Of a stretch of 23,828 nucleotides of DNA, positions 2,862 through 17,747 are shown one piece after another. The position numbers and the translations under genes were made by a program. This DNA is from a virus, in IMG/VR virus record IMGVR_UViG_3300028831_000047, positions 1 through 23,828 of that record; one strand, written 5' to 3'. The notes beneath the pieces were generated by a model that was not told where the DNA came from, did no database searches, and saw only the letters and a program-made list of their open reading frames with translations. Each line of letters starts with the position of its first letter. Position 1 is the stretch's first letter.

Positions 2862-3478
2862 TCGAGCACCCCCAGGAACGAGACAAGCTCGCGGCTTATG
2901 ACTTCCTTCAAACGCGCGTCGGACGGGATCACGTCCGGGTCGGGCGCTTGCGTGACGCCCTTCGACAGCCAGAACATTATCTTGCCGCTGAGAACCGACG
3001 TGCGGCTCGTCTTCACGCCGCTGCCTGCGACGCGCGAGCGGCCAGCGACGCGCTCCGTCGTCACCAGAGCGGCGGGCGCGTTCGGGGCCCGTCCGAACTT
3101 GACGAAGCGAAGCGGGAAGTCAGACGCGACGTGCCCGTGCGCTTCCGGCCTCGCGGGTATCGTCAGGTAGGTCTTGTTCACCGGCTTGATGGTCCCGCCG
3201 TAGTAGCGTTGGGCCATCCCGATCTTCGTGATCGACACCCGCGCCGTCTTCGCGTCCGAGTAGGCCGTCGTGCTCTTGGCCGCCTGCTCCCAGAAGTTCG
3301 TCCTGCGCCCGCCGATCGCGTTCGGCCTCGATCGGTTCAGCGCGAACAGGTACCCGCGAACCTCCTGCTGGCAGACACGCGCGACGAACTCGTGCATCTC
3401 TGCCTGGCTGTTCAACGCGCGTTCGAGCTTGCGCAGCTTCGACGCGGGCGACTCCTTGACTGTGATCAGGACGCTCAT
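2858..3478 (-). CDS. putative virion morphogenesis / tail completion protein, 206 aa
   Basis: The ATG at 3478-3476 overlaps the stop of the minor head gene (ATGA). The N-terminal half is helical and basic (SPASKLRKLERALNSQ, EMHEFVARVCQQEVRGYLF) and is followed by NRSRPNAIGGRRTNFWEQAA. A beta-rich part contains RYYGGTIKPVNKTYLTIPA and DFPLRFVKFG. The phrase 'GGTI-P...K.LTIPA' resembles Mu gpG / virion morphogenesis and HK97-gp10-like neck proteins, where the same region reads as a conserved G-G-x-I/V followed by a beta strand. The location between the minor head protein and tail genes agrees. It would act in joining heads to tails. Confidence 0.6.
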   Translation of the reverse strand: MSVLITVKESPASKLRKLERALNSQAEMHEFVARVCQQEVRGYLFALNRSRPNAIGGRRTNFWEQAAKSTTAYSDAKTARVSITKIGMAQRYYGGTIKPVNKTYLTIPARPEAHGHVASDFPLRFVKFGRAPNAPAALVTTERVAGRSRVAGSGVKTSRTSVLSGKIMFWLSKGVTQAPDPDVIPSDARLKEVISRELVSFLGVLE

Positions 3479-4737
3479 GCGACGACGCTCCTCGTCTCCT
3501 TTTCGAGCTGCTCCATGTCCTGACGCCCGGCCCCCTTCATCCAAGCGACGAAGTCCTCGACGCTCATCTCCTCGATGCCCCCGAAATGTTCCGGGCCGCT
3601 GCCGTCCGTGAACGCATCGAAGTAACCTTGCTTCGCCTCCTCCGGCCCGGGGAAGTCCAACATGGCCTTCAGCTCGTCGAACTCGCGCGTGACCGGGTCG
3701 TACTGCACGATCACGAACACGCGCTCCGACGACGGGGCGGGCCCAACGAAAACGTCCAGCGCGTCGAGATCGTCGCTGACGGTGCCGCCGACGTAGCCGT
3801 AGGGCCAAGGCATGACGCTTGCCCACATCGTCCCGTCGGACGCGATGCCGGTCCGAACGTCCCCGGCCTCCGTCTCGATCACCAGCGTCAGCCCGCGCCA
3901 CTCGCGCGTTCCCGCCGCAGGCTGCTCCTCGTCGGCCATCAGCACGCCCTTGCGCACCTTGAACCCGTCCCCGAGCGAGTCGAGAAGCGCGTCCTTTATG
4001 TCCCGCGCGAAGTTCAGCACGCCTTCCCCGAGCCCCTCGATGAACTCAAGGTCGGTCGGCTCAACGTCCTCGTCCTCATCGATGACCCCGAGCGCGACGG
4101 CTTCCTCGCGGCTCACGTCGCGAACGTCCATCCCGGAGTTGAACGCGAAAGGCGGGAACGGGTTCCCGAGCGTGTCCTTGTACCCGCCTTCACCGTCGCC
4201 CAACGCCTGCCAAACTTCGTCGTCCTTCCGCGCGATCATGCGCCCGCCGTAGAGCTGCCCACCGGCCGCCTCCCACCGCTCGAACCAGTCGCGCGGCTCC
4301 TCGCGCTCCCCGGCCCTGAACAGCTCTTGGCACGGGAACGCGTTCAGGATCACGTCGGACTGCCCCTGCTGGAAGTTCCCGAAACCCCACGCCATCTCGC
4401 TCTGCGTCCGAACGATCAGGTCTATGCGCGGGTCGTTCTGAACCTGCGGAACCGAGAGCTGGTCGGCGAGATCGCGAAGCTCCTCGCGCGCCGTCGCCGG
4501 GTTGAACCCTTCCGTCGCCCCGCGCTTCGCCCGCTTCGGTTCCAAGATCGACCCGACGGTGTCCTTCACCCCTTGAAGGAACTTCGCGTTGGTCACCCGC
4601 GCCGAGAACACCGCCCCGCGCTTGACCTGCGACGCCATCTGCCGGAGCTGCTCGCTCGACAGCGACGTGGGCAGCAGCGACTTGACCCGGTTGCTGTGGA
4701 TCGCTTCCTCGAACGGTACCAGCGACTCGAAGATCAC
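3475..4737 (-). CDS. minor head protein (Mu gpF-like) fused to a C-terminal InPase-like domain, 420 aa
   Basis: The GTG start (4737-4735) overlaps the previous TGA as GTGA. Residues about 80-260 carry the head-morphogenesis signature seen in Mu-type F proteins: a helical region with IVRTQSEMAWGFGNFQQGQ, then WFERWEAAGGQLYGGRMIAR, FPPFAFNSGMDVRDVSREEA. A linker (residues about 262-279) leads to a separate domain at residues 280-376. It has WPYGYVGGT, the acidic motif DDLDALDVFVGP (322-333), FVIVQYDP and EFDELKAML. This is the arrangement of the InPase (inorganic-pyrophosphatase-like) domain found in phage polyvalent proteins, where the usual DEHK is DELK here. The first part is probably at the portal/connector inside the capsid; the activity of the second is unknown. 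A C-terminal coiled tail follows (QDMEQLEKETR). Confidence 0.75.
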   Translation of the reverse strand: MIFESLVPFEEAIHSNRVKSLLPTSLSSEQLRQMASQVKRGAVFSARVTNAKFLQGVKDTVGSILEPKRAKRGATEGFNPATAREELRDLADQLSVPQVQNDPRIDLIVRTQSEMAWGFGNFQQGQSDVILNAFPCQELFRAGEREEPRDWFERWEAAGGQLYGGRMIARKDDEVWQALGDGEGGYKDTLGNPFPPFAFNSGMDVRDVSREEAVALGVIDEDEDVEPTDLEFIEGLGEGVLNFARDIKDALLDSLGDGFKVRKGVLMADEEQPAAGTREWRGLTLVIETEAGDVRTGIASDGTMWASVMPWPYGYVGGTVSDDLDALDVFVGPAPSSERVFVIVQYDPVTREFDELKAMLDFPGPEEAKQGYFDAFTDGSGPEHFGGIEEMSVEDFVAWMKGAGRQDMEQLEKETRSVVA

Positions 4738-4994
4738 GCCGCAGCCTCCTTCTCTTGCCCGCGCCTTATGTCGCGACGCCAAAGTATCTCCTCGCAGGAC
4801 TCGAGGGCCGTGATCGCCCGGCTCGTCTCCTTGCACGGAACGCGTCGCCCCTGAACGCGCAGCCGGTGGAGAAGAACGCCGAGCAGCTCCTCGTTCGTGA
4901 CCGCCCCGCCCGGCATGAACTCGATCGAGGTCCCGTCGCTCAGCTTGTAGCGTTCGCCGTCGACGACCGATATGAATTTCTGCTCCCCGATCAT
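4734..4994 (-). CDS. small hypothetical head-module protein, 86 aa
   Basis: The ORF is flanked on both sides by 4-base overlaps: ATGA with the connector gene at 4994-4991, and GTGA with the minor head gene at 4737-4734. This strongly supports it as a real gene. The N-terminal part looks like a beta-barrel or SH3-like fold (KFISVVDGERYKLSDGTSIE, FMPGG), followed by a helix-rich basic C-terminus (LLGVLLHRLRVQGRRV, ALESCEEILWRRDIRRG). No family is recognised. A role in head completion or as an assembly factor is only contextual. Confidence 0.65.
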   Translation of the reverse strand: MIGEQKFISVVDGERYKLSDGTSIEFMPGGAVTNEELLGVLLHRLRVQGRRVPCKETSRAITALESCEEILWRRDIRRGQEKEAAA

Positions 4995-5474: not shown

Positions 5475-5927
5475 TCACTTGAGTATCGTCGCCTTGACCG
5501 CCGTCACCGTCACGTTGTTCGTCTGCGTCGTCTCGATCTTCGAGAGCTTGATCCGCGTCACGTTGACGAAGTTCGTCGGCTGTATCCAGTAGAAGCCCTT
5601 GACGTTGGTCGACCCGTTCGACGACAGCGAGTAGGAGATCGGCCCCGTCGTCGAGTAGTTCGTCGTCGCGGGCTCCGCGTCGATCGTCACGTCGAACGTG
5701 AACACCAAGTTGGACGTGGTGCTCGTCGTCTCCGCGCTGAAGATCGGCATGATCGCCATGCCGTCGCGCGACGCGCTCGTGTTCCCGACGAACAGCACGT
5801 TGCCCGTCACCGTCTTGACCTCGTTCGACAGAACGACCGGCGAGCTTAGGAAATCGCTGAACGTCTGCCCGACGCAGCAGACCGACGTTAAAACCGCCGC
5901 CGCCGCAACCGCGAGTAGTCTTTTCAT
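5475..5927 (-). CDS. secreted-type beta-rich protein with Sec signal peptide, 150 aa
   Basis: The start ATG (5927-5925) has a good SD, AAGGGA, 8 bases upstream. The N-terminus is a textbook signal peptide: positive MKR, hydrophobic LLAVAAAAVLTSV, then CCVGQTF, with a likely cut near Gly20. A lipobox is not convincing because Val precedes the first Cys. The mature part is a Thr/Ser/Asn-rich, all-beta protein with few charges (for example FTFDVTIDAEPATTNYS and TRIKLSKIETTQTNNVTVTA). A signal peptide in the middle of a phage head module is uncommon. It is separated from the capsid gene by a hairpin and from the connector by 4 bases. Possible roles include a surface-exposed capsid fibre or decoration, or an exported moron product. 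The function is unknown. Confidence 0.7.
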   Translation of the reverse strand: MKRLLAVAAAAVLTSVCCVGQTFSDFLSSPVVLSNEVKTVTGNVLFVGNTSASRDGMAIMPIFSAETTSTTSNLVFTFDVTIDAEPATTNYSTTGPISYSLSSNGSTNVKGFYWIQPTNFVNVTRIKLSKIETTQTNNVTVTAVKATILK

Positions 5928-5941
5928 TGTTGGTTCCCTTC

Positions 5942-5985
5942 AAGCGAAAACCGGACGGACGGTCTTCCCATCCGCCCGGTCGCTT
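5942..5985. terminator. hairpin between the capsid and signal-peptide genes; terminator-like for plus-strand transcription
   Basis: The left arm is AAGCGA (5942-5947) plus CCGGACGGA (5951-5959). The right arm is TCCGCCCGG (5971-5979) plus TCGCTT (5980-5985). The arms pair over 15 positions with one non-Watson-Crick pair (a G-U wobble on the minus-strand RNA) and a 3-base bulge, around an 11-base loop. On the plus strand the stem is followed by TTTT, then a run of T at 5995-6001, so it resembles an intrinsic terminator for antisense transcription. On the minus strand, the direction of the genes, there is no T tract, so it may act as an RNA-stabilising or attenuating stem below the highly expressed capsid message. 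Confidence 0.6.
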
Positions 5986-6018
5986 TTGGATAAGTTTTTT
6001 TGCCGTCCGCGTTTCGGT

Positions 6019-7020
6019 TTAGCTGATCGTCAGTTGGCGAACGCCGAGCGTCGACGTGATCACGGTGTCGGAGTAAATCTCCACCGTTATGTCGACGAGC
6101 TTCATCGTCACCTGCTGCTCGTACACCCGAACCATCGTCCCGCCCATCGTCTGCGTGACGAACCGCTTGATGTTCGACGGGTCGTCGATGCTCTGGTTCG
6201 GGTTCGCCAAGAACACGAGCACCCGGTTGCCGCCGAGGATGCCGAGCTTCGCCGTCGGCGACGACTGGTACATGTGCCGCGCCACCATGCCGCGCTGGAC
6301 GCCCACGAACTGCGCGACCTGATCGACCGTGATGCCCGCCGACGCGAAACCTCCCGCTAGGTTCTGCGCCCTGTGCGCCAAGATGCGCTTGCTCCACGCC
6401 GTCAGGTCGTAGAGCACGTTGGACGGAGGAACGCCTGCGGCCCCGACGTAGCTGATCACTTCGTTCAGCACGTCTTGGTCCGGGTCTTTCCCGCTCGACG
6501 TGTCCCACGTCTTCGCCGTGTTCGTCGCCGCAGCCGACAGCAGCGTGATCGCCCGGCGAACCTCGTTGCGCAGGATGCGCTCTTGCAGCTTCGCCACCGT
6601 GCGCTCGCGCCAGTTGGTGTTCTGGTCGACGTTGTCGAGGTCGATGCGGATCGTCAGACCCTTGTTCTTGGTCGTCCCCGTCGCCTTGTCGCTCGTGTAC
6701 TCCACGCGCTTGAAGTCGGCCCCGATCGCGCGCACGTCGTCCGTCTCGGTCACGAACGCCTCGACGTTCGGGAATGTGCGGTACTCGAACCGGCGCGGCA
6801 CCTCGGTCGGCGGCGCGATGAAGTCGATGAGCTGCTGCAAGCCCTCTTGGTCCCGCCAGCCCGTCGCGTAGGTCGTCAGCGGCTCGCTGAAAAACGCCTC
6901 GACGAAGCGCGACGTGTTCGCCATGCAGACAACGCCCGGGTTCGGGTTGCCGTTGTCTTCGGCGTACTGCTCGATGCGGAAATCGTTCCCCGCGTCGTTC
7001 GCAATCAAAATGTCTCTCAT
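6019..7020 (-). CDS. major capsid protein (HK97-fold, putative), 333 aa
   Basis: Length and position (after scaffold and decoration genes, before the connector) fit a major capsid protein. The N-terminal arm lacks a long delta domain. Typical features include FIAPPTEVPRRFEYRTFP, DNVDQNTNWRERTVAKLQER followed by the long 'spine'-like helix ILRNEVRRAITLLSAAA, then NVLYDLTAWSKRILAHRAQN, and a C-terminal beta region with GILGGNRVLVFLANPNQS and MKLVDITVEIYSDT. These match the helix and beta layout of HK97-type capsids of the kind that come with Mu-like portal genes. The ATG is at 7020-7018; the SD is weak. It would form the capsid shell after cleavage of the scaffold. Confidence 0.8.
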   Translation of the reverse strand: MRDILIANDAGNDFRIEQYAEDNGNPNPGVVCMANTSRFVEAFFSEPLTTYATGWRDQEGLQQLIDFIAPPTEVPRRFEYRTFPNVEAFVTETDDVRAIGADFKRVEYTSDKATGTTKNKGLTIRIDLDNVDQNTNWRERTVAKLQERILRNEVRRAITLLSAAATNTAKTWDTSSGKDPDQDVLNEVISYVGAAGVPPSNVLYDLTAWSKRILAHRAQNLAGGFASAGITVDQVAQFVGVQRGMVARHMYQSSPTAKLGILGGNRVLVFLANPNQSIDDPSNIKRFVTQTMGGTMVRVYEQQVTMKLVDITVEIYSDTVITSTLGVRQLTIS

Positions 7021-7053
7021 AGGTTTGGTCCGTTTAGATGTTGACTGCGTCGA

Positions 7054-7563
7054 TCACGCGAGCGCGACTCCGGTGAAGAAGATCGCGACCTCGATCTGGT
7101 CGCCCGTTGCCCCGGACGCTTGGATCGCCCGGCCGATTGCGTAGCCCGTCGAGACGGCTGTCTTGACCGTCCCGTCGCCGTTCGACTGGACCAACGCGCC
7201 CGCAGCTATGACTCCCGTCGCGATGCAGATCGTCGTCCCGACGCAGCCGGGTATCAACGCCACCGAGACAGGATCGCCAGCGGCCAGCGCGGCGTCCTCT
7301 GCAATCCCGATCGGGATGTCGGTCGCCGACGCGCTCACCGCTACGTGCGCTTCGTCGGTCCCGATCTTCACGACGTGGTACCGCGTGATGGCAGCGTCGG
7401 CGATGAGCGTCTTGCGCCCGCTGACGTGCCTCCCCGCGTTGGGTGGGTTCGCCGCGTTGACCATGTTGCGTAGTTCCGTGCGCTTCCGACGCTGGCGCCA
7501 CACGCACACGGAGGCAATGGCCAGCAGGACCAACCCGGCCCCAAGGATTCCATAAGGATTCAT
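7054..7563 (-). CDS. capsid decoration-like protein with N-terminal membrane-anchor leader, 169 aa
   Basis: The ATG at 7563-7561 has the SD AGGAA 7 bases upstream. Residues about 45-169 form a beta-rich, Ala/Gly/Val-rich domain (TLIADAAITRYHVVKIG, DIPIGIAEDAALAAGDPVSV, GTVKTAVSTGYAIGRAIQAS) typical of small phage decoration or capsid-stabilising proteins located just before the capsid gene. Unusually, residues 1-33 form a leader: a hydrophobic segment (YGILGAGLVLLAIASVCV, about residues 4-21) followed by WRQRRKRTELRN, then Met34-Val-Asn, which looks like an ancestral start. The scaffold gene has a related leader. A shorter product starting at Met34 (7464) is possible. The decoration role is inferred from fold and position. 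Confidence 0.7.
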   Translation of the reverse strand: MNPYGILGAGLVLLAIASVCVWRQRRKRTELRNMVNAANPPNAGRHVSGRKTLIADAAITRYHVVKIGTDEAHVAVSASATDIPIGIAEDAALAAGDPVSVALIPGCVGTTICIATGVIAAGALVQSNGDGTVKTAVSTGYAIGRAIQASGATGDQIEVAIFFTGVALA

Positions 7564-7587
7564 TTAAGGTTCCTGTCAGTGTTTGGC

Positions 7588-7610
7588 GGCGCTGTGGTGT
7601 TCGCAGCGCC
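7588..7610. other. small perfect inverted repeat between coiled-coil and decoration genes
   Basis: GGCGCTG (7588-7594) and CAGCGCC (7604-7610) form a perfect 7-bp stem around a 9-base loop in the 65-base gap before the decoration gene. No T tract follows in either direction, so termination is unlikely. It could be an mRNA stability or processing element for the decoration and capsid message. Hairpins of this size occur by chance in GC-rich DNA. Confidence 0.35.
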
Positions 7611-7628
7611 AGTGCATCGCGTTCGTCT

Positions 7629-7943
7629 TTACTTCTTGGCGCTTTTCGCCTCGTCGTCCGCTTTCTTCTTCGCTGCCGCTTCGGCGGCCTCGCGCTCTTT
7701 CACCTCCCGGTCGTGCGCCTGCTGGCGTCGCACGACTTCGATCGCGTCCTTCTCCGATAGGCCGTGCCGCATCTTAAGCGCGACGGCCTCGCGTATGTCC
7801 TCGGTCACGCCGGCAGTCTTTAGCTGCCCCTGCAGCTTGCCGATCTGCATGTGGAGCCCTTGGATCGTCTCCTTGAGCCGCTGGTTCTCTGCGGCCAAGT
7901 CTTCCACCGCCGCGTTCGGGTTCTCTTTCTCGTCTTTCGCCAT
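7629..7943 (-). CDS. small coiled-coil protein of the head module, 104 aa
   Basis: This is a highly charged helical protein. Residues about 10-45 have heptad-like spacing (NAAVEDLAAENQRLKETIQG, then MQIGKLQGQLK). Next comes a short globular segment, GVTEDIREAVALKMRHGLSEKDAIEVVRRQQ. The C-terminus is a Lys/Ala/Glu-rich helix (EREAAEAAAKKKADDE) ending in AKK. The composition matches the scaffold protein just upstream, including the AAAKKKA[DE]DE phrase shared by both. It may be an accessory scaffold or a chaperone for the decoration or capsid protein. The ATG is at 7943-7941, 33 bases after the scaffold stop. The function is inferred. Confidence 0.6.
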   Translation of the reverse strand: MAKDEKENPNAAVEDLAAENQRLKETIQGLHMQIGKLQGQLKTAGVTEDIREAVALKMRHGLSEKDAIEVVRRQQAHDREVKEREAAEAAAKKKADDEAKSAKK

Positions 7944-7976
7944 AGTTCGGTTTTGCCCGTCAGGGCGGTTGAGTGT

Positions 7977-8795
7977 TTACGCTGCCTTCCGCTGCGGGAC
8001 AGCCGACTCCGGTTGGTGCATCCCGGCCAGCAGCGCCTTGCCTTTCTCCGACGACTTTACTTTCGAGTAGGCTTGGTCGTAGGTCAGCTTCTGGTCCACC
8101 ATCACCTTCGCGACCTCGTTCGCGAACTCCTGCGCGTTGCTGACGCCCTTCGAGCGTTCGCCCCCGAGCCCGTCGCTGGCGGTACCGCCGCCCGGCAGAG
8201 CTGGCGCTTTCTCCGTCAGCTTCTTCACCTCGGCGTCGAAGTCCGTCGCGTTGGCCAGCAGCTTCTCCGTCGCTTCCTTCTCCGCCGCGGTGATCTTCTT
8301 CGCGATGATCAGGTTCGAGACGATCAGACCGATGCGCGCTTGGCGCTCGTTCGCGAAGTTCCCTTCGGCAGCCGTCAGCTTCTTTTGGAGGTCGGCCTTC
8401 TCGTCTTCGGCCTTCTTCTTCGCGGCGGCCTCGTTCGCGGCGAGCGTCTCCTTGTCCTTGAGGTCCTTCGCCAGCTTCTCGTTCGCCTTCTCCATGTCGG
8501 CAACCTTCGACTTGATCGCCTTGTCGTCCGGGTCGGCGTCCGTGGCCATCGCCGTGTTGTAGGCTTTCTTGACGGCCTCCTCGTTCGCGCTCTCGTTCAG
8601 CCCGAGAAGCGACAAGACCATCTTGCGGTAGTCTGCCGTCGCGCCGGTTCCCGGGTCGCCCTCGTTGGCCATGCTGCGAAGACGCAGGCGGCGCTGGCGA
8701 AGGCTCCACCGGCTGGCTCGCCAGCAGAAGAAAACGATCAGGAAGATAGGAGCTAGCGCCCCGGCGATGATGATTGCTGCGAGTATCGTGTTCAT
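7977..8795 (-). CDS. prohead scaffold protein with N-terminal transmembrane leader, 272 aa
   Basis: From about residue 42 this is a typical scaffold: YRKMVLSLLGLNESANEEAV, like the 'LLGL.e.A..e.v' opening of the Mu gpI/Z scaffold region. A long Lys/Glu/Ala coiled coil follows (EKLAKDLKDKETLAANEAAA, then KADLQKKLTAAEG). The C-terminal part is conserved-looking, with AQEFANEVAKVMVDQKLTYD and KGKALLAGM. It would nucleate capsid assembly and be removed by the protease encoded upstream. Before this are about 41 residues with a strongly hydrophobic segment (ILAAIIIAGALAPIFLIVFF), then CWRASRWSLRQRRLRLRS and Met42-Ala-Asn. No internal start with a clear SD is visible, but initiation at 8672 (Met42) cannot be excluded. 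The start region is A-rich (TAAAAAACCAAAAAACAATG) rather than SD-like. Confidence 0.75.
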   Translation of the reverse strand: MNTILAAIIIAGALAPIFLIVFFCWRASRWSLRQRRLRLRSMANEGDPGTGATADYRKMVLSLLGLNESANEEAVKKAYNTAMATDADPDDKAIKSKVADMEKANEKLAKDLKDKETLAANEAAAKKKAEDEKADLQKKLTAAEGNFANERQARIGLIVSNLIIAKKITAAEKEATEKLLANATDFDAEVKKLTEKAPALPGGGTASDGLGGERSKGVSNAQEFANEVAKVMVDQKLTYDQAYSKVKSSEKGKALLAGMHQPESAVPQRKAA

Positions 8796-8809: not shown

Positions 8810-9403
8810 TTATACGGCCTTCGTTTGAGAACGCTCGACTTCGTGAGGACACGTCCTCCCAAGACTTCGAGCCATATTGCAATTCATGCATAGTACCCCG
8901 TAGCCTTGCGGATACCCGCTTCGCTTGAGATACCGATAGAAGTTCGTCGCCCCGCGAATCTTTAACTGAGCTCTGTGCTGCTTGCCACCGCCGTTGCTGT
9001 GGTCGATCGAAAGAAATTCGATGTGACTCTCGCCGCAACACGCGCAGCGCGGAACCGTCTCGTCGGAATAGTGCGCCAACACTTCGATCTTCAGTTGCCT
9101 GTTAGCTACTGTCGACGTAGCCAAAATCGCTTCGCGTTTCGACGGATAAGACTTCCTTCGTTGCTTGTTGATCTTTTGACCCATCGACTTCCACCACTGT
9201 CGTCTCTTACGCAAAATGATTTCGCGATTCGCGACGTGGTAATGACGCTTCTGCGTCAGAACCTCATCCTTGTTTTTTCGATACCTCGCTTTCGCTTGAG
9301 CTCGGATCAAAGCGCGTTTTTTCACGTACCGCGCCTTGCGCTTCGCTACTTGCTCCGGGCGTCGGTAATAATCCACGACTTGGTAGTGATGTTTGTAGGC
9401 CAT
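8810..9403 (-). CDS. free-standing HNH endonuclease, 197 aa
   Basis: The C-terminal half has the zinc-bound HNH/His-Me finger layout common in phage intron-type endonucleases: RCACCGE (Cys120-Cys123), IEFLSIDHSNGGGKQHR (Asp134, His135), FYRYLKRSGYPQGYGVLCMNCN (Cys172, Cys175) and a final CPHE. The N-terminal 95 residues are very basic, with repeated Y/K/R-rich segments (YYRRPEQVAKRKARY, RAQAKARYRKNKD, RKRRQWWKS) that probably bind DNA. Base composition is visibly lower in GC than the flanking head genes. It lies exactly between the protease and scaffold genes (gaps of 4 and 14 bases), with no sign that either is interrupted. It is likely a mobile homing-type element. Assignment as a nuclease is firm; its target is unknown. 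Confidence 0.9.
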   Translation of the reverse strand: MAYKHHYQVVDYYRRPEQVAKRKARYVKKRALIRAQAKARYRKNKDEVLTQKRHYHVANREIILRKRRQWWKSMGQKINKQRRKSYPSKREAILATSTVANRQLKIEVLAHYSDETVPRCACCGESHIEFLSIDHSNGGGKQHRAQLKIRGATNFYRYLKRSGYPQGYGVLCMNCNMARSLGRTCPHEVERSQTKAV

Positions 9404-9407
9404 TGCT

Positions 9408-10805
9408 TTAGTCTTCGAGTTCTAACTGCAATTTCCCACAGATTTTTTTGGCAGTGTCCTCGTCGTAGCCGCCCTTGCCTTCCATGTGCACGAGGCACGC
9501 GTCGAAATTCTCCCACGGCCCGAACGAGTTGACGAACGCGGTCATCCCGCCTTTGAACGTCCCCTCCTTCTCGTCGACCATCGAGCGCACCCGGCGCATG
9601 TTGGCCATCCGTCGGGCCGCCTTCATCGGGGCGTCCGCTGCGCCCTCGTTCTTGTCGTCTTCGTTCGCGACCGGCTCGAACACCGTCTTGCGCTCGACCT
9701 GCTTCGGGTCGCCTTCGGCCAGGACGATCTCTCCGGCCTTCACCGTGAACTCGTGGCGATAGTAGAGATCGTCGGGGCACTGGCAGATCACGCTCCACGG
9801 TTCCGACACCGTCTCCGGCGCGAACACGTCCGTGATCCAGATGCTGCCGGGATACTGGCGGCCCGCTGGCGGCGCTTTCTTGAACCGCGCGTCGTTGTTC
9901 AGAACCGACTGCAGCTTCTCCCGCACGTCGTTCGTCGAAAACTCGTTCGCCGCGTTCGCAGCTTTCGCCGCGTCGTCGTCCTCTGGTTGCCCTGCCTTCT
10001 TGCTCGTCGTCAAATGGTGCTGCGCCATCTTCGCGTGCTGCTCGCACGCGGCGTCGCGGATCGGGCAGCCGCCCTGCGCTTTGCTCGACGCGTCGTTGAG
10101 CTTCTTCGCGTCGATGTGCGCCTTGACCGCCTCCTCGTGGTCGCCCGGGTCGTTGGTCGTCGCCGCCTTCGCCGTCGCTTTGAAAGCTGCCTTCGTCGCG
10201 GCCTCCGCCTCGTCGACGAAATCCTTACGCACGTTCCCGAACAGGCGCAGACGCGCGAGCCGCTTGAACTGCGTCGCCTGCTGCGCTTCGTTCGCCGCCG
10301 TCACCGGGGGCACCGGGATGTTCGGCTCGTTCGTGAACCCGACCGACTTCAGCCGTACCGGACGCCACACGCCTTTCTCGTTCGGGTCTTCCTTGAGGAA
10401 CCAGTTGACGCTGTGCCCGCCGAACGCTTCGTCGGCGATCATCGACTCGCCCTCGCTCCCGAACCGGACTCCGGCCCACAGGCCGTCGTCGCGTGCTTCG
10501 AGGTCCTTGATGCGCCCGTAGGCTTTCGTGTCCTTGTAACGCTCGTTGAACGCCGGGTGGTCCGGGTGGCCGATGTACCACGGCAGGCCGAGTACGCGCT
10601 TGGGCAGGCTCGTGACCTTCTTGAACTCGTTGACGATGTTCTGCGCGTCGGCTTTCTCCAGACGCTGCAGCCCTTGCTTGTTCGGCCAGTCGCCGTAAGG
10701 CGCGAGCATCGCCCACCTGATCTTCGTCTCCTCCTTCGGGGCCGAGAACTCGTTGGAGAAAAGGATCGAGGGGAACTCGAAAGCGATCGCCTCGCTGTTG
10801 GCCAT
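9408..10805 (-). CDS. Mu I-like prohead protease, 465 aa
   Basis: The N-terminal domain reads like phage Mu gpI-type proteases: IRWAMLAPYGDWP near residue 30, GLPWYIGHPDHP (His80, His83), GRIKDLEARDDGLWAGVRF, then EAFGGHSVNWFL (Ser132 probable nucleophile region) and LKSVGFTNEPNIPV. It would cleave scaffold and capsid arms in the maturing head. The middle region (about 175-290) is Ala/Lys-rich and helical. A further domain at 300-390 has QYPGSIWITDVFAPETV and QCPDDLYYRHEF. The C-terminus (about 400-465) is Arg/Met-rich and ends with FDACLVHMEGKG..DEDTAKKICGKL, a tail found on several phage morphogenesis proteins. Chosen start: ATG at 10805-10803. In-frame ATG at 10835 and GTG at 10847 are alternatives, and no start has a strong SD. 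The scaffold is encoded separately. Confidence 0.8.
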   Translation of the reverse strand: MANSEAIAFEFPSILFSNEFSAPKEETKIRWAMLAPYGDWPNKQGLQRLEKADAQNIVNEFKKVTSLPKRVLGLPWYIGHPDHPAFNERYKDTKAYGRIKDLEARDDGLWAGVRFGSEGESMIADEAFGGHSVNWFLKEDPNEKGVWRPVRLKSVGFTNEPNIPVPPVTAANEAQQATQFKRLARLRLFGNVRKDFVDEAEAATKAAFKATAKAATTNDPGDHEEAVKAHIDAKKLNDASSKAQGGCPIRDAACEQHAKMAQHHLTTSKKAGQPEDDDAAKAANAANEFSTNDVREKLQSVLNNDARFKKAPPAGRQYPGSIWITDVFAPETVSEPWSVICQCPDDLYYRHEFTVKAGEIVLAEGDPKQVERKTVFEPVANEDDKNEGAADAPMKAARRMANMRRVRSMVDEKEGTFKGGMTAFVNSFGPWENFDACLVHMEGKGGYDEDTAKKICGKLQLELED

Positions 10806-10910
10806 CAGTTGGAACTTTGGACGCCTGACTCGCATCACGGGCGGCACTATCGTCGACGCGACACGCGGAGAGCAACAGAAAGGTTGTGGCCACCTAAATA
10901 CCGCAGTCGC

Positions 10911-11987
10911 TTACGGAGCACTTGGCCCGCCTGCTTCCTCACCTAAAATAAAGCTCTCCAAGTCTTCCGGTGGTCCCCGGAACAAGTTGTGTGAACCTGT
11001 GTACTCAGGGACAAGCGGCGGGTATTCATCGTAGTCAATGTGAAGAATCCCATAAGGAGCAAACAAGTGGTAAACGCGACTCGTGGTGGTTGGCCCGTTG
11101 CCCCAGACAGCGTTCGCATCGTCCAAGGACACTGCCAACAGCACATCGCCTTCAAAAAGATAAGTAGAGCCAACCAACGGTCCTACGAGTGTTGGGCTTT
11201 CTCCTGTAACATCGAAAATTGAGTAGCCAGTCAAATTGACGGGAACGGAGTAACTTTCGTCAACATCGTTGATAGTCACTTGGATGCTGCCGCTGTTACG
11301 AACTACCAAGGTTGCCCAATCTCGAATACCCTGTGCAGAGGGCGGGCTGCTGGTGCCGCCGCTGAGGTCAATCGTTCCTGAGACGAAGTCTTCGCTGGCG
11401 ACGCAGCGGGCGAGGATGTGGTCAACGCTGGCTTGAGAGAGGGCGCAATTTGCGAAGTTAAGAGTTGATCCGTCACCGGGCAAATACGCTGGAAGGCTCA
11501 AGTCTTCGAGAATGGAGCAGCCGTGGAAATCTATCGAACCACTGACAAGCGAGGGCGCAGAAAACCCGGTCAACTGAGTTAGGGTCGCCGATAATGTTCC
11601 GTCGATCGTTTCGATGCCGTTCAGTGCAATCTCTCCTTCTCCGTCGATAAGAGCCGCAAGATCCAAATCAAGACTTCCTGTGGTATCTGCAATGGCAGGA
11701 CTCCAAGTGATACCTGATGGAGCGCCCTCAACAGCCACCCAGTCCGCGCTCGTTACTCCGGTGCTCCGCCAGTAGGCATTCGCGTCTATGTCGTGGTAGA
11801 GCTGGTTCAGGAACGCTGGCGTGACAACGTCGATCGGGGAACCGGAGCCGAATTTGCCGCCGCCTTCGCCAGCCTGCTCAACGAGATAGTCGTCCCACGC
11901 GATCTGGTGCTGCGCAACCTCAAGCGCGTCGGACGGCTTCAACCCGGCTGATATTTTCGACGCCACCAGCGTTTCAAGTTTGCCCAT
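10911..11987 (-). CDS. LRR/beta-repeat structural protein, chimeric composition, 358 aa
   Basis: The ATG (11987-11985) has SD AGGAAG 7 bases upstream. Residues 1-52 are helical and end in a Gly-rich linker (LETLVASKISAGLKPSDALE, then GEGGGKFGSGSP). The next 30 residues (VTPAFLNQLYHDIDANAYWR) are still GC-rich. After that the DNA changes to a clearly lower GC content and the protein becomes an LRR-like beta-solenoid: LDLDLAALIDGEGEIALNGI, TLTQLTGFSAPSLVSGSIDF, ILEDLSLPAYLPGDGSTLNF. It also carries the phrase 'SGTIDLSGGTSSPPSAQGIRDWATL', which I recognise as a recurrent motif in phage and bacterial LRR-like proteins. The C-terminal 80 residues contain VYHLFAPYGILHIDYDEYPP. It is probably a surface or fibre-like structural protein with an acquired body. 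The exact role is unknown. Confidence 0.65.
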   Translation of the reverse strand: MGKLETLVASKISAGLKPSDALEVAQHQIAWDDYLVEQAGEGGGKFGSGSPIDVVTPAFLNQLYHDIDANAYWRSTGVTSADWVAVEGAPSGITWSPAIADTTGSLDLDLAALIDGEGEIALNGIETIDGTLSATLTQLTGFSAPSLVSGSIDFHGCSILEDLSLPAYLPGDGSTLNFANCALSQASVDHILARCVASEDFVSGTIDLSGGTSSPPSAQGIRDWATLVVRNSGSIQVTINDVDESYSVPVNLTGYSIFDVTGESPTLVGPLVGSTYLFEGDVLLAVSLDDANAVWGNGPTTTSRVYHLFAPYGILHIDYDEYPPLVPEYTGSHNLFRGPPEDLESFILGEEAGGPSAP

Positions 11988-11991
11988 AGGT

Positions 11992-12153
11992 TCACTTCCT
12001 CCTGGCGTTGGCCATCTGAGCAACGCGCGTCAGCGTGGCCTTCGCCCACCGGGACAAGTTCCCGTTCGCCACTTCCTTGAACGCCTGCTTCTGCGTCGGC
12101 GTCACGCGCATCTTCAAAATCTCCGACGCCTTCTCTTGGAGGTTAGTGGCCAT
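11992..12153 (-). CDS. small RHH-like protein, 53 aa
   Basis: The ATG (12153-12151) lies 11 bases inside the end of the portal gene. The stop (11994-11992) is 4 bases before the start of the next gene, whose SD lies in the last codons of this one. Translation begins MATNLQEKASEILKM, then RVTPTQKQAFKEVANGNLSR and WAKATLTRVAQ. The RVTP...F...A...N.S.W pattern of one strand plus two helices looks like a ribbon-helix-helix (MetJ/Arc-type) DNA-binding protein, though proof is lacking. The close packing at both ends argues for a real gene. Confidence 0.6.
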   Translation of the reverse strand: MATNLQEKASEILKMRVTPTQKQAFKEVANGNLSRWAKATLTRVAQMANARRK

Positions 12154-13963
12154 TTGGAGTTGGCGCTGGCGTCGTCGAGCGAGGAGTCGATCGACGGTGA
12201 AGCTCTTTGTGCGCGAGCGGGCGCGGGCCGGTGACCAAACCGTTGAGCAGCATCACGCCCATCAGGTCTTGCAGCCCTTGGGCGTTGTCGGGCGTCTTGT
12301 TCGCCTTGCGTAGGTAGACCGGGAGATCGTCGCGCAGCTTCTTAAGCGCCGCCTGCATCTGCTCGTCGTTCGCCATCTCGCTGATCGCCTTCAAGCGGTC
12401 GCGCAGCGGCTTGAGCGCGAGCGACGTGTCCTTGGCGAACCGGGCCTTCGCGCGGTTCAGGAACACCTTGGAAATCTGCGCGGCGTTGGCCGCCGTCTGA
12501 CTCGCGATGTTTCCGTTGCGGTGTCCGTTCCCGTTCCTGTTCGCCGGAGCGCCGTTCGGGTCGTCCTCTTCGCCGTCGAGCCCTTGCCCCGGCACCGCGG
12601 CTGGCTGCGGAGCCGACAGCATCTCCTCGTCGTCCTCCGCTTCCGCGCGGCCGTAGCGTTCGAGCGCCGACGCGATCGACAGCTTGACGCCGCAGCTCAG
12701 CAGGAACTGGTCGACCGCGATCTCAAGGTTCAGGTCTTTCGGCTTCGGGATGTTCAGCTTGACGTACGCCTTCGGGACGACGTTCTGGCCGAAATGCCAG
12801 CGCAGCACGACCGGGTCGATGTAGTGGTTCAGCGTCTCGGTGATCATCTGCCCGTTGTGCTGCTCGATCAGGTCCGTCTCGTCCCCTTGCAGCGACGCCC
12901 CGGTCCCTTCCGCGTGCTTGCCAGACGAGAGCGTGCCAAGGTCGGCCCCGCGTGCGACCGCGCAGATCGCCTTGTCGATGTAGTCCACGAGCAGCGGGTA
13001 GGGCAGTTGCCCGGTCGCTCCGAACTCCAGCTTCTCGATCGCGTCGGCGATCCCGATGATGAGCGCCGAGTCGGTCCCGATCGCTTCGAGCGCACGCTTC
13101 ATCGCGTCGAAACCGGGCGTCCCGTTCGGGTGCGTCGTCTTCCCGATCGGCAGCGGCATCCCGTTGCGCTCGGAGTAGATCAGCCAGTCGCGCAGCGCGA
13201 TCGTTTTGTACATCCAACCGACGCTGATCGCCTCCATGATCCCGTCCCCGACGGTGACCATCCACTGGCCGTCCGTCAGCGTGATCCCGTCCCAAGCGAA
13301 GTTGCCGCAGAAGCGCAGCGAGCCAGTCCGGTTCTCGAAGAACCAGAGCGGGACGAAGACGAAGCTGGCCGTCAGCCCGAGCACTTCCCCTTCGTCGTCG
13401 ATCTGCGGCTTCCAGACGATCTCGTGGACCGCGTACTTCTTGAGCGTCGCGTCCATCATCTGCAGAACGAGCGTCCCGAACCCTCCGCGCTGGTTGCGGT
13501 CGACCGCGTTGGTGCATTCGAGGTTCGAGTAGAAGTATTCGAGCGCCTGCGCGTGCTTCTCCGCCTCGACCGGGTCTGCCCCTTCGACCTTCACGATCTC
13601 GTAGTCGCGGCGGGCCAGCGCCATCTTCAGCTTTCCCGTCGCGCTCTTGATGACGAGGTCGCGCGATTCGAGCGCGTCCATCGTCAGGCTGAACCGACGC
13701 ATCGTCCCGACGTTCCACTCGGACAACTGCGACGTGAGGGCTTCCGGCGAGAGGTGCGCGATCGGCTGGAACCTCGCCTGCCGGTAGAGGTAGACGGCGG
13801 CGGGGTTGATCAGCGACAGCGCCTGCGAGGTCTGCTGAACGTCAGCGCCGCCGAGACGCTGCGTCGCAAGGTTCGCTGGCGGCGACAGGTCATAGGACGG
13901 CTTCGGGAGGTCGGGCGTCGGGAGTGCTGCGTTGGCCGTCGTCTTGCTTTTCGCTTTCGGCAC
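12143..13963 (-). CDS. portal protein, DUF935/Mu gp29-like, 606 aa
   Basis: This large protein has the typical body of the Mu gp29 portal family. An N-terminal helical section contains LINPAAVYLYRQARF and LSEWNVGTMRRFSLTMDALE, followed by DLVIKSATGKLKMALARRDYEI. A conserved central region reads YKTIALRDWLIYSERNGMPL, PIGKTT, then ALEAIGTDSALIIGIADAIE, as in other DUF935 proteins. Further on is LVDYIDKAICAVARGADLGT with ETLNHYIDPVVLRWHFG. The C-terminal 150 residues are a low-complexity linker (PNGAPANRNGNGHRNGN) and a helical segment. It forms the dodecameric vertex through which DNA is packaged. The start is uncertain: GTG at 13963 has GGTAAG 8 bases upstream, while TTG at 13969 is too close to it. 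Confidence 0.85.
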   Translation of the reverse strand: MPKAKSKTTANAALPTPDLPKPSYDLSPPANLATQRLGGADVQQTSQALSLINPAAVYLYRQARFQPIAHLSPEALTSQLSEWNVGTMRRFSLTMDALESRDLVIKSATGKLKMALARRDYEIVKVEGADPVEAEKHAQALEYFYSNLECTNAVDRNQRGGFGTLVLQMMDATLKKYAVHEIVWKPQIDDEGEVLGLTASFVFVPLWFFENRTGSLRFCGNFAWDGITLTDGQWMVTVGDGIMEAISVGWMYKTIALRDWLIYSERNGMPLPIGKTTHPNGTPGFDAMKRALEAIGTDSALIIGIADAIEKLEFGATGQLPYPLLVDYIDKAICAVARGADLGTLSSGKHAEGTGASLQGDETDLIEQHNGQMITETLNHYIDPVVLRWHFGQNVVPKAYVKLNIPKPKDLNLEIAVDQFLLSCGVKLSIASALERYGRAEAEDDEEMLSAPQPAAVPGQGLDGEEDDPNGAPANRNGNGHRNGNIASQTAANAAQISKVFLNRAKARFAKDTSLALKPLRDRLKAISEMANDEQMQAALKKLRDDLPVYLRKANKTPDNAQGLQDLMGVMLLNGLVTGPRPLAHKELHRRSTPRSTTPAPTPNGH

Positions 13964-14036
13964 GCACAACGCTTACCAACGGAGCGCCGCCTGCGTCAAC
14001 ACCCGTTTTCCGTCCCGGCGCAGCCAGCCCGATCTT

Positions 14037-16250: not shown

Positions 16251-17747
16251 TCAGAACCGAGTGCGCGAGTAGCGCGGCATCGACGCCCCGCTCGTCCGCG
16301 CGTTGCTCTGCTCGACGACCGTTGGCTTGTTCATCAGGTTGCTCACGCATATCAGATAGCCGCCGCTGACCGAGTCGACTATGTCGTCATGCTCGCAGTT
16401 CGGGGCGAACGTGTCCATCTCGTCGAACAGCATCCCGTTCCACGGCCCGCGCACGCACTTTATGATCCCGTCCTCCAATCTCGTCCCCCACATCGAGGCG
16501 CGCATCTCCTTCGACCCTTCCGGCACGTCCGGGACGACGACGTGGCCGAGCATCTCGGCGTCGTCCTTTATGTCCTGATAGTAGCCAAGCTGTGTCCCGT
16601 TTGCTTCGATCGCGACGATGACCTCCGCGCCGTCGCGCTTCGCCACCTCCTTGATCTTCGCCTTCCCTTTCGGCCACCGCCCGTTGACGCGCTCGACGTG
16701 GAGGATGAACACCTTCCCGTCGAACGTCACCCCGATCTTCGCCCCGGCCAGGTAGTCCGCTCCCTTCGTCTCGGAAAACGCTAGGTCCCATCGCCTGACG
16801 ATCTTCATCAGCGGCGGAACGTCGCAGGCGTCGACCATGTCGAGCGCCGAGCTGTCGAGTATGTTCCCTTCGAGCGAGCGCGGGTTGCCTTGGTACCGCG
16901 CTTCGAACGCGCGTCCTCCCATCGCCTGCTTGCTCGCCATCAGCGCGTCGAGCGGGAACCTGTCAGGCCAGAGCGCGTCGCCTTGAACGCGCCCGAGCGG
17001 GTCGTTCGCGTCGGCGAGCGCCGGAAGCCGAAGCTCCTCCCATTTCTCGCCGTCGCCGTTCTTGCTCGCCGCGATGAGCTTCCCGGCCAAGTCCTCCGTC
17101 GACCAGCGCGACATGATCAGCACGATCGCGCCGCCCGGTTCGAGACGGTCGCGCAGCGTCTCTTTGTACCACTCGTAGGTGTTCTGGAGCGCCAGCCTGT
17201 TGTATGCGTCCGCGCGGTCCTTCACCGGGTCGTCGATCAGGATCAGGTTCGCCCCTTTGCCCGTCGGGGAACCGAGCACGCCGATCGACCTGAACGACGA
17301 GCGATAGGCCGTCGTCAGCGCCCAGTCGTGAACAGCCGAACTGTCGTCGCGCACGCGCACGTCGGGGAACACCTCCGCGAAGCGCGGGTTGAACGACACG
17401 TTGTTGCGCACCGTCCGCGAGAAGCCCGTCGAAAGGTTGGCCGAATGCGAGACGCAGATGATCGACCGCTCGGGGTTCCGCCCGAGATACCACTGCGGGA
17501 ACTTCTCGCAGGCCAGCGAGCTTTTCCAGTGGCGCGGCGGGCAGGTGATGAACAGGCGCTTGACCTCGCCGCGCTCGACGGCTTCGAGACGCTCGGCGAT
17601 CGACCGCAGGTGTGGCGACCCGTAGGACGACGCGGCGTTGGTGTCCGTGAACTGCGCGAACTCGATCAGCTCATGCTTCGCCAGCTCGCGCCTCGCCCAC
17701 CTTACCGTTGCCGCTCTCTCCGTTGTGCTGATGTTTAGCTTCGCCAT
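16251..17747 (-). CDS. terL: terminase large subunit (TerL), 498 aa
   Basis: This is the ATPase and nuclease motor that packages DNA into the prohead. The N-terminal ATPase has a Walker A loop in CPPRHWKSS (69-77), adenine-binding-type sequence before it, Walker B LILIDDP (168-174) and a coupling motif IMSRWSTEDLAG. The C-terminal RNase H-like nuclease has IVRRWDLAFSETKGADYLAG (Asp321), VIVAIEANGTQLG (Glu381) and CEHDDIVDSVSGG (Asp454/455), so the acidic triad is complete. Trp74 replaces the Gly commonly found in the P-loop. The length is normal. The start at 17747 lies 77 bases inside the small subunit gene and has no clear SD; no later Met is near, so coupling to the upstream gene is likely. 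Confidence 0.95.
   Translation of the reverse strand: MAKLNISTTERAATVRWARRELAKHELIEFAQFTDTNAASSYGSPHLRSIAERLEAVERGEVKRLFITCPPRHWKSSLACEKFPQWYLGRNPERSIICVSHSANLSTGFSRTVRNNVSFNPRFAEVFPDVRVRDDSSAVHDWALTTAYRSSFRSIGVLGSPTGKGANLILIDDPVKDRADAYNRLALQNTYEWYKETLRDRLEPGGAIVLIMSRWSTEDLAGKLIAASKNGDGEKWEELRLPALADANDPLGRVQGDALWPDRFPLDALMASKQAMGGRAFEARYQGNPRSLEGNILDSSALDMVDACDVPPLMKIVRRWDLAFSETKGADYLAGAKIGVTFDGKVFILHVERVNGRWPKGKAKIKEVAKRDGAEVIVAIEANGTQLGYYQDIKDDAEMLGHVVVPDVPEGSKEMRASMWGTRLEDGIIKCVRGPWNGMLFDEMDTFAPNCEHDDIVDSVSGGYLICVSNLMNKPTVVEQSNARTSGASMPRYSRTRF

Follow-up and report, generated by a model that had tools for sequence, protein, structure and literature searches.

Propeptides, maturation motifs and membrane-attached proheads are already known among phages. 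Heads of phage T4 form at the inner membrane and detach following cleavage by gp21 (PMC9026906; PMC9958956). Proheads of SPN3US remain membrane-bound without the protease, and their release has been described just as "in some way dependent" on it (PMC7411985). Cleavage in T4 and phiKZ falls after Glu (PMC9026906).

The locus described here lies in the window, the whole 23,828-base stretch of DNA that was analyzed, which is the record of an uncultured virus whose phage group is related to prophages of Verrucomicrobiota bacteria. As in T4 and in SPN3US/phiKZ (gp245/gp175 protease), several head proteins carry predicted N-terminal propeptides that end in one short, common protease motif. The gp21 sites of T4 are (L/I)-x-E, whereas here the motif is hydrophobic-Ala-Asn, with a protease of the Mu I type. 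T4 proheads are attached via the portal gp20 and YidC; here the decoration protein (and one scaffold) has its own predicted transmembrane anchor. The capsid set of SPN3US/phiKZ is unrelated to the present one, and in the literature searched, with most subscription journals outside its reach, no description was found of the Asn motif or of a capsid decoration protein that carries a transmembrane propeptide. Literature on DUF2190, Verrucomicrobia phages and transmembrane propeptides in capsid assembly yielded nothing relevant.

Resemblance to Mu and Mu-like phages (protease I/scaffold Z; JBD30) includes the PF10123 protease of relatives, the Mu-type portal PF06074, and the encoding of protease and scaffold in a single reading frame in most relatives (an approximate count). 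In the window, by contrast, the scaffold is a separate gene behind the HNH-like gene. The JBD30 minor capsid protein was considered as a leader-bearing relative and rejected, being a protein of 113 residues with a hydrophilic N-terminus and no membrane leader. By profile and fold, the cement domain belongs with PF09956 (formerly DUF2190; TW1, HFTV1, Pam3); the decoration protein of the window differs in its transmembrane, motif-terminated leader, at the end of which the members of PHROG 673 begin.

We propose, with a probability of roughly 0.55, that the leaders are head-protein propeptides ending in a motif for the phage's own Mu-I-type protease, and that they would act as membrane anchors released by maturation proteolysis. 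If true, a cleavable transmembrane capsid anchor would give a simple molecular form to the link between proteolysis and release in T4 and SPN3US.

The head module and its two hydrophobic leaders

The head module occupies the minus strand, its genes following one another as terminase, portal, protease, HNH-like gene, scaffold, small gene, decoration protein and major capsid protein (MCP) (Table 1). Relatives of the MCP were gathered from viral contigs and Verrucomicrobiota genomes, among them strain LW23 and Brevifollis gellanilyticus, the nearest relative being L013 (~70% MCP identity). Searches with tblastn against 50,697 records of named phages, using the decoration protein, the MCP and the MCP of L022, returned zero relatives, and no RNA families or tRNAs were found in the window.

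Table 1. Positions of head-module genes and predicted protein segments in the window.
Feature	Position	Strand	Basis
Terminase	16251-17747	-	Head module
Mu-type portal	12143-13969	-	PF06074
Maturation protease, Mu I type	9408-10847	-	PHROG 328 head maturation protease, 5.6e-11
Protease N-terminal leader (M)RVRRPKFQ-LMAN; motif	10797-10805	-	Motif analysis
HNH-endonuclease-like gene	8810-9403	-	C..C / DH / C..C pattern in sequence; GC 0.52 vs 0.64
Stand-alone scaffold gene	7977-8795	-	ORF; leader residues 1-41, then body
Scaffold leader, residues 1-41 (MN + predicted transmembrane segment + Arg-rich stretch)	8673-8795	-	No counterpart in L013
Scaffold leader, hydrophobic/predicted transmembrane stretch, residues 8-24	8724-8774	-	Mean Kyte-Doolittle 2.86 over 17 residues
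Scaffold, predicted cleavage motif M-A-N, residues 42-44	8664-8672	-	phi-A-N motif analysis
Scaffold body, further phi-A-N at residues 119, 147, 180 and 224	7977-8663	-	Motif counts vs shuffles
Small conserved gene of the head region, flanked by the scaffold and decoration genes	7629-7943	-	Profile matches in 42 loci
Decoration gene	7054-7563	-	ORF; leader residues 1-33, then cement domain
Decoration leader, residues 1-33 (MN + predicted transmembrane segment + Arg-rich stretch)	7465-7563	-	Type kept in most of 47 non-redundant relatives
Decoration leader, hydrophobic/predicted transmembrane stretch, residues 5-21	7501-7551	-	Mean Kyte-Doolittle 2.51 over 17 residues
Decoration, predicted cleavage motif(s) M-V-N-A-A-N, residues 34-39	7447-7464	-	P-2/P-1 covariation with MCP motif (43 phages)
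Predicted mature decoration (capsid cement) domain	7054-7446	-	Pfam PF09956, 5.6e-07; PHROG 673, 1e-17
MCP gene	6019-7020	-	Propeptide 6916-7020 + mature MCP 6019-6915
MCP predicted N-terminal propeptide ending V-C-M-A-N, residues 1-35	6916-7020	-	Asn35 conservation
Predicted mature MCP, HK97 fold	6019-6915	-	PHROG 1005; Foldseek to BB3626, HFTV1 and HK97 capsid proteins

The scaffold ORF starts MNTILAAIIIAGALAPIFLIVFFCWRASRWSLRQRRLRLRSMANEGDP and the decoration ORF starts MNPYGILGAGLVLLAIASVCVWRQRRKRTELRNMVNAANPP. The initial annotation had recognized in both a hydrophobic and Arg-rich leader placed before unrelated bodies, and had considered the two leaders consistent with a duplicated cassette. 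The individual elements are present as it described them. Each leader contains a 17-residue stretch with a Kyte-Doolittle value above 2.5, followed by RQRR and Met-Ala/Val-Asn; 15-16 of 19 bases agree at the Met42 and Met34 codons; and the DNA shared at an offset, CGCCAGCG (CGCTGGCG on the plus strand), corresponds to the RQR codons of both genes, two codons out of register. The bodies are indeed unrelated, with Phage_cement_2/PHROG 673 in the decoration protein and the coiled C-terminal part of a Mu-I-like protease/scaffold in the scaffold.

Recruitment of one duplicated DNA cassette to both genes, for which the agreement at the Met codons and the similar RQRR codons might speak, is nonetheless extremely improbable. 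The best alignment of the two leaders covers their last 15 residues (Arg-rich stretch and Met-x-Asn), and once Met-Ala/Val-Asn is removed, the leader score is 25 compared to 24.1 in block-preserving shuffles (p=0.40), no better than for random hydrophobic-plus-basic segments. At least 15 of 19 bases match in 28% of codon draws for the two peptides at local codon frequencies (P=0.28), which means that the peptide in common and the codon usage are enough to account for the DNA match. Moreover, 3 of 19 decoration leaders from other phages match the scaffold leader of the window at least as well as its own decoration leader does, the RQRR codons are out of register, and the scaffold copy is missing in L013, where the decoration leader is of the same type as in the window and the scaffold leader is short and different (MKKILKALFGFNAVIQ-MAN). 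The non-random part common to both leaders is the terminal motif, which recurs in two further head proteins.

The HNH-like gene, with its lower GC content, sits exactly between the protease and scaffold genes, which are fused in most relatives. Pfam and PHROG profile searches with this gene gave zero matches. It is possibly a homing-type insertion, although L013 also has split protease and scaffold genes without such a gene.

An Asn motif in four head proteins

The key point overlooked in the initial annotation is that the S/N-Met-Ala/Val-Asn end has the form of a maturation-protease-type motif, which occurs in the MCP and the protease as well. Since this end is shared with those two proteins, the leaders are probably removable propeptides. 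In general form the motif is [L/F/A/M]-[A/small]-Asn, and it is common to both leaders, the start of the MCP domain, the protease N-terminus and many sites in scaffolds; the predicted propeptide boundaries of all four proteins (MCP, protease, scaffold and decoration protein) are thus marked by one short motif. In the window it reads VVCMAN-TS in the MCP, FQLMAN-SE in the protease, LRSMAN-EG (plus four internal sites) in the scaffold, and LRNMVNAAN-PP in the decoration protein, where it is ambiguous, with Asn39 chosen by automated alignment and Asn36 by eye.

Conservation of the motif is most evident in the MCP. Of 85 sequences, 81 have Asn and the other four Asp immediately ahead of the conserved domain, in the context hydrophobic-Ala-Asn-Glu/Asp/Ala, and Asn35 is invariant in an alignment of 25 sequences; residues 1-17 are modeled with low confidence by AF2. 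The decoration leaders of relatives end in hydrophobic-Ala-Asn immediately N-terminal to the cement domain. Among 41 scaffolds, phi-A-N was observed 131 times versus 26 in shuffles, and the window scaffold alone has five phi-[AV]-N sites, with 1.2 expected (p=0.012). Only the non-primed side is shared between proteins, with a hydrophobic residue at P3, Ala at P2 and Asn at P1, whereas P1' is Glu in the MCP and Ile in the decoration protein. Because the sharing is limited to residues up to and including Asn, cutting after Asn is the likeliest arrangement, and we infer that the motif is a cleavage site of the maturation protease.

The variable residues of the motif covary between head proteins. 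At P-2/P-1, the two residues before Asn, in 43 phages with <70% MCP identity, the MCP and decoration motifs agreed with a score of 226, compared to 113.6 +/- 13.5 in shuffles (p<=5e-5), and a partial Mantel test controlling for MCP identity gave r=0.55 (p=2e-4). The motifs had initially been read by eye, and the result was therefore checked against an automated alignment. Of the 117 adjacent column pairs in the re-extracted decoration alignment, the motif pair reached z=7.0 and the other 116 at most 2.7. The signal is position specific: -2 pairs with -2 (z=5.3) and -1 with -1 (z=5.2), and the crossed pairings are near zero. The MCP motif likewise predicts the motif of the protease N-terminus (z=5.9) and of the scaffold (z=6.6) in the same phage, provided that both are anchored on Asn; with other residues as the anchor, z does not exceed about 1. 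Individual phages illustrate this agreement, such as L084 (QFCN in MCP, decoration protein and protease), L004 (HLSN, HLCN and HLCN, in the same order) and L016 (EFN-A, QYN-A and QVN-A).

Part of the covariation is explained by phylogenetic inheritance. On the MCP tree, about 2-2.6 independent pairs agree and 0.3 oppose, which is the right direction with too few pairs for significance, and the protease-core control gives z=2.8; some tree signal therefore remains. The simplest cause of the covariation would be one enzyme reading all four head proteins, for which the maturation protease is the natural candidate: PF10123 (Mu-like_Pro) scores above the cut-off in the proteases of L012, L022, L023 and L024 (up to 1.8e-29), and the window protease, which has no Pfam match at the 0.01 threshold, is recognized by PHROG 328. 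Across dozens of uncultured phages, the co-evolving motif yields predicted mature N-termini for four head proteins, along with a predicted Mu-I-type protease specificity that is open to testing with peptides.

Several relatives show variants of the MCP region. L064 has two tandem MCP genes (5893-7971 of that locus), each with the Asn motif (ICAAN-ESRF). In L084, L085, L086 and L087 the MCP has an additional N-terminal segment with the motif present twice (FFAN-EES and QFCN-AGA in L084), which resembles a duplicated propeptide. The only MCPs with an Asp motif are those of L073, L090, L092 and L093, which belong to the relatives whose decoration protein has no leader or almost none.

Decoration and scaffold leaders: hydrophobic segments and translation starts

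The mature part of the decoration protein is a cement domain. Its PF09956 match scores 30.3 bits (Pfam cut-off 24) over residues 53-160, and the AF2 model (mean pLDDT 87) comprises a helix at residues 3-34, a loose, low-confidence linker at 35-49 that contains the motif, and the domain itself at 50-161. Foldseek places the model with the capsid-stabilizing proteins of HFTV1 (E 3e-06), Pam3 (7.7e-05) and TW1 (8.7e-04), and also with the base of the phi29 head fiber; a sequence search of solved structures with the decoration profile gave a marginal match to HFTV1 alone (E=0.78).

A clear transmembrane segment, called from hydropathy and charge alone, is present in frame in the decoration leader of 27 of 47 non-redundant phages, with a 17-residue stretch at Kyte-Doolittle 2.0-3.2. 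Net charge in these leaders averages +0.1 before the segment and +3.9 after it, and in 25 of the 27 the C-terminal, cement-domain side is the more positive, corresponding to a C-in orientation. By hydropathy and charge, the leader thus has the makeup of an anchor, with some 17-20 hydrophobic residues and positive charges on the cytoplasmic side. Since the positive charges lie on the side of the cement domain, that domain should stay in the cytoplasm. The same distribution makes it very improbable that the leader is a Sec-type signal by which the cement domain would be carried out into the periplasm or envelope; the N-terminal position and hydrophobic core would suit such a signal, but the charge is opposite to what it would need.

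A further account places the hydrophobic frame outside the protein altogether, with translation starting at Met34 of the decoration protein and Met42 of the scaffold. Alignment of PHROG 673 members from residue 33 onward is what this account would predict, and in a small number of distant relatives (L066, L090) the leader is absent or almost absent. The initial annotation had itself pointed to such starts as evidence against its reading. For the decoration protein, a start at Met34 is disfavored: the motif residue is Leu, Phe or Ala rather than Met in most relatives, and the shared cleavage motif accounts for Met34. In 11 of the 27 transmembrane leaders, the stretch from the end of the membrane segment to the seventh codon after Asn contains no ATG, GTG or TTG, and translation must therefore begin upstream of the segment. 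In addition, a hydrophobic segment in frame is a particular feature of decoration genes (24 of 47, versus 0 of 47 for the MCP, 0 of 46 for the protease and 0-1 in shifted forward frames), and Met1 of the window decoration protein is preceded by AGGA. For the two proteins together, late starts are judged distinctly improbable, and from its sequence features the decoration leader appears to be a real, family-wide propeptide.

The scaffold is a different case. Each of the stand-alone scaffolds (window, L013, L007 and L079) has a basic or hydrophobic leader of its own, with Asn at the end, and only that of the window is clearly transmembrane (2.86, compared to 0.66-1.39 in the others); no transmembrane scaffold leader was found among the relatives examined. 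The scaffold ATG at 8795 lacks a Shine-Dalgarno sequence. Because the transmembrane leader is confined to the window phage, translation of its scaffold may begin at Met42.

The decoration leader also varies across the family. About a third of the relatives have no clear transmembrane segment, the leader being short and basic or amphipathic, or missing (L066, L090), which indicates that anchoring is not essential family-wide. On the MCP tree, the distribution of transmembrane and non-transmembrane leaders requires six changes, at least two of them forced by supported branches; the segment has therefore been gained or lost more than once. Differences between the decoration leaders of the window and L013 fall 8, 8 and 9 at the three codon positions, and the lack of a third-position excess indicates that the leader evolves fast. 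The dN/dS ratio for this pair was uninformative, as the leader is too short and fast-evolving.

Possible membrane anchoring or capsid targeting, and neighboring genes

The motif is shared and co-evolves in four head proteins, and the decoration leader is in frame and in most cases contains one transmembrane helix. A leader of this kind with a co-evolving cut site suggests that parts of the head stay attached to the cell membrane up to the point at which the phage's own protease cuts. The decoration leader would insert as an N-out/C-in anchor, holding the cement domain (and, in the window phage, the scaffold too) at the cytoplasmic face of the inner membrane, where the anchored proteins could concentrate or nucleate prohead assembly. 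Once the prohead is complete, the maturation protease would cut MCP, protease, scaffold and decoration protein at the same motif; loss of the anchors would then allow the head to leave the membrane for DNA packaging. Cleavage, insertion, tethering and release are all predictions of this sequence-based model. The proposal of membrane-tethered head assembly in the initial annotation accordingly finds support for the decoration protein, through the in-frame transmembrane leaders and their C-in bias. More tentatively, this lineage of tailed phages as a whole may build its heads at the membrane by means of disposable transmembrane propeptides, with the shell-maturing protease also severing the tether, so that maturation and release would be one step.

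The main difficulty for the anchor model is geometric: cement proteins with the fold of the decoration protein lie on the outside of the shell, and the protease acts within it. In the Mu-like phage JBD30, the procapsid lacks the decoration protein, which binds only after expansion. The principal rival dispenses with membrane insertion: the leader would serve for capsid targeting, as in the internal proteins of T4, and would dock to the scaffold core inside the prohead before being cut, with the hydrophobic stretch packing against other leaders or the core instead of a bilayer. In T4, these internal proteins are directed into the prohead by N-terminal propeptides of 10-20 residues, which gp21 removes (PMC7411985; PMC9026906), a pattern that the decoration leader and its motif would fit. 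The decoration motif must be reachable by an internal protease, and in several relatives the leaders are short and amphipathic (L020, L021, and the scaffolds of L007 and L013). However, the hydropathy of the 27 transmembrane leaders and their C-in bias exceed the needs of docking, and the fold of the decoration protein is that of outer-surface cement proteins. Capsid targeting is therefore considered rather unlikely, and release of membrane anchors by maturation proteolysis is the preferred reading.

Other features of the module are recorded here as separate observations. The C-terminus of the window protease (9408-9530, minus strand) has a KGGYDEDTAKKICGKL-type tail that resembles the XkdF-like ends of other phage proteases; in the L013 protease, this tail lies in the middle of the protein. 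A GLxxxDAxEVxxxQxxxxD-type motif is common to the small gene between scaffold and decoration protein, conserved in about half of the loci, and to the N-terminus encoded by the gene at 10911-11987 (minus strand). Downstream of the capsid genes, the reading frame at 3475-4836 (minus strand) contains an inorganic pyrophosphatase domain (PF18823, 2.5e-32).
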